64,000 nt of DNA from Bacteriovoracales bacterium (GTDB taxonomy: Bacteria; Bdellovibrionota; Bacteriovoracia; Bacteriovoracales; Bacteriovoracaceae), in contig JASBRV010000067.1 of NCBI GenBank assembly GCA_030149295.1, positions 1 through 64,000 of the forward strand, written 5' to 3'. Below are positions 24,663 to 26,998 of the stretch, piece by piece. Position 1 is the first letter of the stretch. Every line of letters begins with the position of its first letter. The notes under the pieces are model-generated. The model was not told where the DNA came from. It made no database searches and saw only the letters and a list, made by a program, of their open reading frames with translations. Position numbers and translations under genes: made by a program.

Positions 24663-25004
24663 ATGTTATATATAAAAGAGATGAAAGAATATTCACTCAT
24701 AATTGAAGGCGACACCTACTACCTCCTCCCCCTTGGCGAAGAAAAACCAAGTTACGCCATCAAGTTTAATTCTAAAGAAATGGCCCATGAGTATAAATTG
24801 GCTTTGGCCCTAGGCACCTATCCTACCCGCAAAAAATCTCCTAAAAGCTATGAAGCTTGTGCAGAAAACTATAATAATATCCCGACTTACATTACGACTG
24901 GGCAAAGGGATAAAGATGCTGATGAAGTGGATTCTTCATGTTGTGAGAGTGGCTGTCCAGGTTGTCCGTGGACCCTTGAGCAGATAAGACGCGGAAATCT
25001 TTAG
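24663..25004 (+). CDS. Hypothetical protein with CCESGCPGCPW motif
   Basis: 113-aa ORF; Cys-rich C-terminal motif resembles small oxidoreductase-like DUFs. Confidence 0.55.
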   Translation: MLYIKEMKEYSLIIEGDTYYLLPLGEEKPSYAIKFNSKEMAHEYKLALALGTYPTRKKSPKSYEACAENYNNIPTYITTGQRDKDADEVDSSCCESGCPGCPWTLEQIRRGNL

Positions 25005-25121: not shown

Positions 25122-25991
25122 ATGAAAGTTACACCTTTTGCCTTGATTGTGGCCCTTTTAATGACAATTTCAACAAATGCTTTTGCTCGTATTGTCACCC
25201 TTAAAAGAGACACTCCTATTTATGAAATTGATCGTTATGGCGACATAGAAGAACTCGGTACCTTCCTTGCTGGAACCCAAATTGAAATTTTTCCTGGCCG
25301 TGAAAAGATGAGAGGCTTAGGCTCCGTCGCACTCGTTAGGAGTGTCTTAGACCCCCATCGTATTCACTCTGATTACCGACATCAAGTGGCCATGAGAATT
25401 AATCGGAGTTCTGATTATGTGGATTTTCTTGTCAGTGAAGCTGATCTTGAAGGCCGCTCACTAAGAAGAAACAGAGATGTCAGAAGACGCGCTAACCCTG
25501 TCGTTCGTCGCGACCCCATTAGAAGAGATGTCGTGGTGAGAGATTTTAATGAGTACCAAGTTTGTTATGAAACCCCCCGCAGTCGTGTGGTGACTATGAA
25601 CGAAGCTCAAAGAGATCGTGGGACAAGAAATATCATAGGAGGAACTGGAGCTATTATTGGAGGCCAAATCATCGGCGGCCTTATCGGCAACGATCGTGTG
25701 GGCGATGTAATTTCTGCTATCGGTCTTGGTTTTGCTGCTGTTGGAGCTGTTCAGGTCGCTTCAGCAAAAGAAGTTTTCTACACTGAATATGGGGTTGACT
25801 GTCGATCCTATTACAAAGCTGACAGACGAGTTTACCCCTTTAAAAGAGGGCGACAAAGTTGTGAAACAACTCGCTATTACACCAGCCGTTGGGGACAAAC
25901 GACTGAGTACTTTGAGACAGAATGTCGTCGAGGAGCCCACACTAGTTACTACGTAAGTTTTGAGCGTAATACTGAAATTTACGGTTACTAA
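25122..25991 (+). CDS. Secreted protein with glycine-zipper segment
   Basis: Signal peptide MKVTPFALIVALLMTISTNAFA; IIGGTGAIIGGQIIGGLIGNDRVGDVISAIGLG. Confidence 0.7.
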   Translation: MKVTPFALIVALLMTISTNAFARIVTLKRDTPIYEIDRYGDIEELGTFLAGTQIEIFPGREKMRGLGSVALVRSVLDPHRIHSDYRHQVAMRINRSSDYVDFLVSEADLEGRSLRRNRDVRRRANPVVRRDPIRRDVVVRDFNEYQVCYETPRSRVVTMNEAQRDRGTRNIIGGTGAIIGGQIIGGLIGNDRVGDVISAIGLGFAAVGAVQVASAKEVFYTEYGVDCRSYYKADRRVYPFKRGRQSCETTRYYTSRWGQTTEYFETECRRGAHTSYYVSFERNTEIYGY

Positions 25992-26006
25992 TTTCTAACT
26001 TATTCG

Positions 26007-26034
26007 GGTCACCTCAAAGAGGTGGCCTTTTTTT
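26007..26034 (+). terminator. Intrinsic terminator
   Basis: GGTCACCTCaaaGAGGTGGCC followed by TTTTTTT. Confidence 0.85.
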
Positions 26035-26118: not shown

Positions 26119-26147
26119 TTGCTCCCACCATCACATGCATTTAGCAT
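26119..26147 (+). promoter_or_regulatory. Possible sigma70-like promoter (TTGCTC-N17-TAGCAT)
   Basis: 17-nt spacing; predicted start about 26154 lies immediately upstream of the hairpin at 26159. Confidence 0.35.
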
Positions 26148-26270
26148 AGCCTTAATACAGCTCATGAATTAAAGCGGCTGGCTTTTGCATAAGCTATCGA
26201 GCAAAACCCTCCCGCTTGCCCGTTCATGATAAGCTTTGACCATATTACCTTTTAAAGGAGGTTGGACGTC

Positions 26271-26333
26271 ATGATTACTATCTCTGAGTTGTTCAAATTC
26301 CTAAGTATCGGCGAGGTTGGTCCTCCAACTTGA
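26271..26333 (+). CDS. Candidate 20-aa peptide MITISELFKFLSIGEVGPPT
   Basis: ATG 9 nt downstream of GGAGG; too short to appear in the ORF track. Confidence 0.4.
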   Translation: MITISELFKFLSIGEVGPPT

Positions 26334-26392
26334 TCATGACATTCAGTTAAGAATACCTCAATCTTCACTTGAAGATTCTAAATAATAAGAAC

Positions 26393-26451
26393 GGCCTTTG
26401 GTTTGATAGTAGAAAAGAGCTCTCTACTTCTTCACCCAAGGCCTTTTTTTT
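26393..26451 (+). terminator. Intrinsic terminator of the candidate structured transcript
   Basis: GGCCTTTGG...CCCAAGGCC with inner AGTAGA/TCTACT helix, followed by TTTTTTTT. Confidence 0.7.
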
Positions 26452-26998
26452 ACTGGTTAAATTTGGCGTAGCGAGACTTTAACTCTTCAAACTCTTCTGT
26501 TCGAACTAATAACTTCACATAACTTTCGATAGAGTCATCATCAATGTTAATCTTGTAATGGGTGGAAATAATCGCGGGTAGCTGCTCGTCTTTCCAAAGG
26601 TCGCGCTTAAAGTCGTAGATAGGAAAGGCCGTCTCTGGTGTACTAGGTGTGGTCTTTATTGATTCCAGCTCTTGCCATTCATGAGACACAAAGAGCCTAA
26701 AATGAGGGCCACAAAAAGTATGCCCATCATGCTCTTTAATACAGTCATCACAAAACATATCCTGACATATGGCACACATGCCATGGGCGTGGTCTTGAGG
26801 ATGGTTTTTACAATAAGAAGTTGGTCCTTCCTCCGTTTTTTCTTTTAAATGTTGGAATTTCTCGGACAAGCTTTGTTCAGAAACTGTATTCTTTCTTTCT
26901 TGGAGAAGTTTGGAAAAAAGATAGAGAATCACACCTGCGAAAATTAGAGTCACAAGAATTAAAGCGCCTACTAGAATGATAACGAGATTTTCAGACAT
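26450..26998 (-). CDS. Membrane-anchored B-box-type zinc-finger-like protein
   Basis: N-terminal TM helix; CKNHPQDHAHGMCAICQDMFCDDCIKEHDGHTFCGPHF. Confidence 0.7.
   Translation of the reverse strand: MSENLVIILVGALILVTLIFAGVILYLFSKLLQERKNTVSEQSLSEKFQHLKEKTEEGPTSYCKNHPQDHAHGMCAICQDMFCDDCIKEHDGHTFCGPHFRLFVSHEWQELESIKTTPSTPETAFPIYDFKRDLWKDEQLPAIISTHYKINIDDDSIESYVKLLVRTEEFEELKSRYAKFNQ

Follow-up and report, generated by a model that had tools for sequence, protein, structure and literature searches.

Stand-alone small open reading frame (sORF) genes of bacteria encode proteins of 15-50 amino acids, are easily overlooked by gene callers, and are recognised through the conservation of their codons. 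Known arrest leaders, which also involve short peptides, precede the gene under their control. Among C-terminal dipeptides, Pro-Pro is one that trans-translation (tmRNA tagging) favors, and bacterial proteins end in it less often than expected (PMC3985003). Abundant, phase-specific small RNAs have been described in Bdellovibrio, including the attack-phase merRNA, which contains a c-di-GMP riboswitch and has no conserved ORF (PMC3627812). No paper on Bdellovibrio small proteins or sORFs was found in the literature searched.

The locus analysed here lies in a 64,000-nucleotide stretch of a Bacteriovoracales genome (the window; contig JASBRV010000067.1). Its central feature is a 20-codon ORF that represents a new microprotein family, although the kind of gene, a microprotein gene, is already known. 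As judged from genome comparison, the family occurs in marine bacteria related to the predator Bdellovibrio. The best explanation, at a probability of roughly 0.55, is a stand-alone mRNA for a conserved microprotein that would act as a free peptide. Unless the genus is named, counts out of seven refer to the window and six other orthologue-bearing genomes, which together span two genera of one family.

A conserved microprotein family

The preliminary description of the window had reported a ribosome-binding site followed by a 20-residue ORF, and both are found exactly, as is every other element of that description at its given position (Table 1). A DNA search within the genus places the ORF region in a second genome, and a peptide search extends this to six of the genus's seven genomes and to a single genome from a second genus in the family (Bacteriovoracaceae, Bacteriovoracia). 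When 374 genomes of the phylum are screened with a profile of the seven peptides, these seven genomes score with E values of 1e-13 to 4e-12 and no other match is obtained at E<=1e-4. G003, the remaining genome of the genus (84% complete), yields no orthologue, which may reflect an assembly gap because the neighboring B-box gene is missing from it as well. Inspection of the weak peptide matches from other genera (E 0.003-0.3) shows none that combines a ribosome site with a GEVGPP end, and they look like chance. Pattern matches outside the class are pieces of other reading frames rather than comparable mini-ORFs. In a synteny search of 20 further genomes by means of the B-box gene, cysS or dihydroorotase adjoins it in only two, with no visible relative of the ORF in either.

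Table 1. Features of the microprotein locus in the window
Feature	Position	Strand	Basis
Outer helix around the 5' hairpin, AGCTCATGAA / TTCATG-ATA-AGCT	26159..26235	+	stable in the window
5' UTR hairpin, AAGCGGCTGGCTTT..AACCCTCCCGCTT	26172..26217	+	position and near-identical letters also in G002 and G004
Shine-Dalgarno sequence, AAAGGAGG	26254..26261	+	exact in the sequence
Microprotein ORF, 20 codons and stop, MITISELFKFLSIGEVGPPT	26271..26333	+	orthologues in seven genomes; synonymous-only variation within SIGEVGPP
3' motif, GACATTCA, 4 nt past the stop codon	26338..26345	+	recurs in orthologues
Small 3' UTR hairpin, ATCTTCACTTGAAGAT	26361..26376	+	sequence and fold of the window
Predicted intrinsic terminator hairpin with T8	about 26393..26451	+	z -3.53

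The peptides are MITISELFKFLSIGEVGPPT in the window and MITLTEMFKFLSIGEVGPPSS, MISLRELFKFLSIGEVGPP, MITNKELFKLLSIGEVGPP, MINIGEMFRLLSIGEVGPP, MISNRELFKLLSIGEVGPPGNSP, and MISLREFFRLHSIGEVGPP in the relatives. They are 19-23 residues long and follow the consensus MI(S/T/N)xxE(L/M/F)F(K/R)(F/L)xSIGEVGPP, with the stop 0-4 codons past Pro-Pro. Twelve positions are invariant and crowd toward the C-terminal end, where S12-P19 form an unbroken run of eight. Pro-Pro is followed directly by the stop in four of the seven peptides; the position of the stop itself is not fixed because the other three carry T, SS, or GNSP tails. Profile searches of Pfam and NCBIfam give no match, and a search of the PDB gives no credible one (a single chance match at E 1.2); these are weak negatives because queries of 20 amino acids are handled poorly. 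The string SIGEVGPP was not found in the literature searched.

Several traits mark the ORF as coding: (i) all seven orthologues start with ATG, (ii) third codon positions vary at 18 of 19 codons (hypergeometric P 4e-6) despite the 12 invariant residues, (iii) all eight SIGEVGPP codons show synonymous change, (iv) protein identity is 77%, compared with 43% (sd 4%) in shuffled columns, with the observed value reached by 0 of 5000 shuffles, and (v) both alternative frames contain stops. The third-position variation, the invariant residues, and the shuffle result therefore indicate selection on the protein and not merely on a non-coding small RNA. On this codon pattern, the ORF is almost certainly a real protein gene, and codon-level conservation across the seven genomes lends strong support to the earlier suggestion of a mini-protein mRNA.

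Predicted transcription unit and genomic neighborhood

A GGAGG begins 9-14 nt ahead of the ATG in six of the seven orthologues, and G005 carries GAGGGG. The same genome has no convincing downstream hairpin; terminator-like hairpins follow the ORF in the other six. The T8 terminator proposed for the window is present and more stable than shuffled sequence, and the whole unit (26148-26451) folds with a z of -4.19 relative to shuffles. The proposed promoter, TTGCTC-N17-TAGCAT, stands as to its letters; its function is not supported because the promoter scan omits it from its list and returns promoter-like sites no more frequently than chance, as estimated from shuffles. Expression of the mini-gene is a prediction from sequence.

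Gene order around the ORF is common to all seven genomes, G005 being assessable on the downstream side only, given its short contig. The ORF is convergent to a B-box zinc gene that lies beside cysS, and a dihydroorotase gene separates the two in three genomes. On its other side, the ORF is preceded by a small CPW-type gene (in the window, 24663-25004); most genomes have a gene for a secreted protein (25122-25991) and/or a divergently oriented lipoprotein gene in between. Each genome holds one copy of the mini-ORF, always in this chromosomal position.

The idea of an independent unit is borne out by these arrangements. In all seven genomes, the upstream neighbor is divergent or apparently ends earlier, across a gap of 201-297 nt, and the downstream neighbor is convergent at a distance of 87-632 nt. 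The preceding gene of the window ends at 25991 and has, as had been noted, a terminator of its own near 26006-26034. A nearby same-strand gene that a leader peptide could control was not found at any of the seven loci.

The CPW-type gene (+ strand) codes for a conserved small protein whose C-terminal part carries the cysteine motif CCxxxCxGCPW; Pfam gives no match for this protein. The product of the convergent gene in the window (26450-26998, - strand) is anchored in the membrane and carries a B-box-like zinc finger, for which the Pfam match (E 7e-5) narrowly misses the cut-off. Of 125 genomes in the family, 97 have the gene; fingers of the B-box type are more familiar from eukaryotes. In the G005 contig (L018), the region +87 to +3131 from the mini-ORF holds a 98-amino acid dihydroorotase-like C-terminal part and a full-length dihydroorotase-like gene, with a 410-amino acid ORF on the opposite strand between the two, an arrangement attributable to partial duplication, insertion, or assembly error.

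Untranslated regions and their possible roles

The nested hairpin of the preliminary description does fold: the outer and inner helices (26159-26235) reach -27.0 kcal/mol with a z of -3.35 against dinucleotide shuffles, and the inner helix alone has a z of -2.78. The inner hairpin (AAGCGG..CCGCTT) is found in the window, G002, and G004, with one copy in each and much the same spacing to the ATG, and is absent from the other four genomes. It qualifies as a conserved element because its arms, nearly identical among the three genomes, are far better kept than the flanks, which are hardly alignable. The evidence for this hairpin is sequence conservation and not covariation; no compensatory change is seen among the three genomes, whose sole variable position reads C.C in the window and A-U in the other two. 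In the relatives, the outer helix is not seen, and the 5' region (leader plus ORF) folds unremarkably relative to shuffles (z from -1.3 to +0.5).

These observations bear on two regulatory readings of the 5' UTR. A riboswitch-like ligand sensor, as had been suggested, could draw on the stable nested helix of the window, and CCCTCC in its 3' arm could pair, by eye, with the ribosome site. It is rejected because conservation is lacking: the outer helix does not recur, only three genomes have the inner hairpin and show no covariation in it, no enzyme gene lies downstream to be regulated, and an Rfam scan of the window and the seven orthologous loci returns nothing near a gathering score. A riboswitch is thus highly improbable. 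Alternatively, a CsrA dimer might bridge a GGA in some hairpin loop of the leader and the one in the ribosome site, which would make the locus a regulated mini-mRNA. All seven genomes carry csrA, and in five a GGAGG lies 57-93 nt before the ATG (0 of 2000 shuffles), extended to GGAGGTT in four. However, the window and G006 lack the upstream GGAGG, so that the window has only one such site, the upstream site is predicted to be unpaired in only part of the genomes, and GGAGG is also merely a ribosome-site-like word. In the relatives, CsrA might act through a pair of GGAGG sites; for the locus as a whole, the bridge is a tentative proposal that we consider unlikely, and as regulation of the mini-mRNA it is compatible with the best explanation.

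Behind the ORF, GACATTCA is found in four of the seven genomes (G000, G006, G004 with two copies, and G002), beginning 0-35 nt behind the stop, and GACATT lies within 60 nt of the stop in six; neither count is reached by any of 2000 shuffles. The 3' part of the unit in G002 and G004 also contains a candidate structured RNA (L020:4335-4422, - strand, and L021:11926-12015, + strand), in which one helix closes off three hairpins. Both genomes keep all 26 pairs, with two compensatory changes, and a strong terminator comes next. The candidate RNA has no Rfam match and is absent from the window. It is a candidate only, because the pair counts of a two-sequence comparison do not exceed those of shuffled sequence (127/500). 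A covariance model of this RNA, run on 289 genomes, recovers both sources and, besides, a single GC-rich match of poor quality, in which some ten pairs are non-standard and which is ascribed to chance.

Function of the peptide

Comparison of the sequences establishes protein-level selection, a fixed place in seven species, a ribosome site belonging to the ORF and, in most, a terminator of its own. The preferred reading builds on these with a stand-alone mRNA whose predicted limits are roughly 26150-26450 and which would encode the 19-23-residue microprotein. The N-terminal part of the peptide may form a helix, probably amphipathic (I2, L7, F8, L11), and the invariant SIGEVGPP tail would dock on a cellular partner. 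The 5' UTR, with its second GGAGG in five relatives and its AAGCGG hairpin in three species, probably tunes translation; CsrA is a candidate regulator. With respect to type I toxins, inspection shows no hydrophobic span, and the gene keeps to one copy and one place. The free peptide is favored by little more than even odds as the working product: a run of eight invariant residues up to a Pro-Pro at or beside the stop would also suit a nascent-chain signal, with the peptide idle once released, no neighbor is clearly tied to the peptide by function, and the conserved GACATTCA is not accounted for.

The main rival is a termination-stalling regulatory peptide, read inside the ribosome tunnel and not after release, where a ribosome pause at Gly-Pro-Pro/stop, or tmRNA rescue there, would set the fate of the same RNA. 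The heaping of conserved residues at S12-P19 with an exact Pro-Pro-stop in four genomes, the preference of trans-translation for the otherwise rare C-terminal Pro-Pro (PMC3985003), and the RNA element directly behind the stop all argue for it. However, a downstream same-strand gene to regulate is absent, whereas known arrest leaders stand ahead of one, and three of the seven peptides add 1-4 residues after Pro-Pro; we consider stalling a minority possibility. A specific form, in which the SIGEVGPP stall controls GACATTCA and the fate of its own RNA (e.g., release of a 3' small RNA) and thereby makes an arrest peptide without a downstream gene, is rather doubtful. The same motif could instead serve as the pairing seed of a dual-function RNA that both encodes the peptide and base-pairs. 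The unit is short, structured, and terminated, the recurrence of the motif exceeds that in shuffles, and abundant phase-specific small RNAs are known from Bdellovibrio (PMC3627812). The remaining UTR sequence, however, is hardly alignable between species, and base-pairing by this RNA appears improbable.

Relation to known systems

The family adds a microprotein to a class of predatory or predator-related bacteria, the Bacteriovoracia, whose small proteins have scarcely been mapped. With 19-23 residues, 12 of them invariant, it exemplifies a very short protein that is provable as real by comparison alone, and the locus raises a clear question that can be put to the test, namely whether the peptide works free or as a nascent-chain signal.

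Among described systems, bacterial stand-alone sORF genes are similar in having a single short ORF with a strong Shine-Dalgarno sequence of its own, short UTRs, and a terminator; the present peptide matches no Pfam or NCBIfam model and, unlike many sORF microproteins, shows no hydrophobic membrane span. Among regulatory arrest or leader peptides with a C-terminal proline, TnaC and SecM (PMC3985003) share with it the short length, invariant C-terminal residues, and Pro beside the stop. In contrast to these, no same-strand gene follows the present ORF, and the position of its stop past Pro-Pro varies. The Bdellovibrio attack-phase small RNAs, merRNA included (PMC3627812), are likewise intergenic, terminated, and structured units of the same phylum; unlike merRNA, the present locus has no Rfam motif and carries a conserved ORF.
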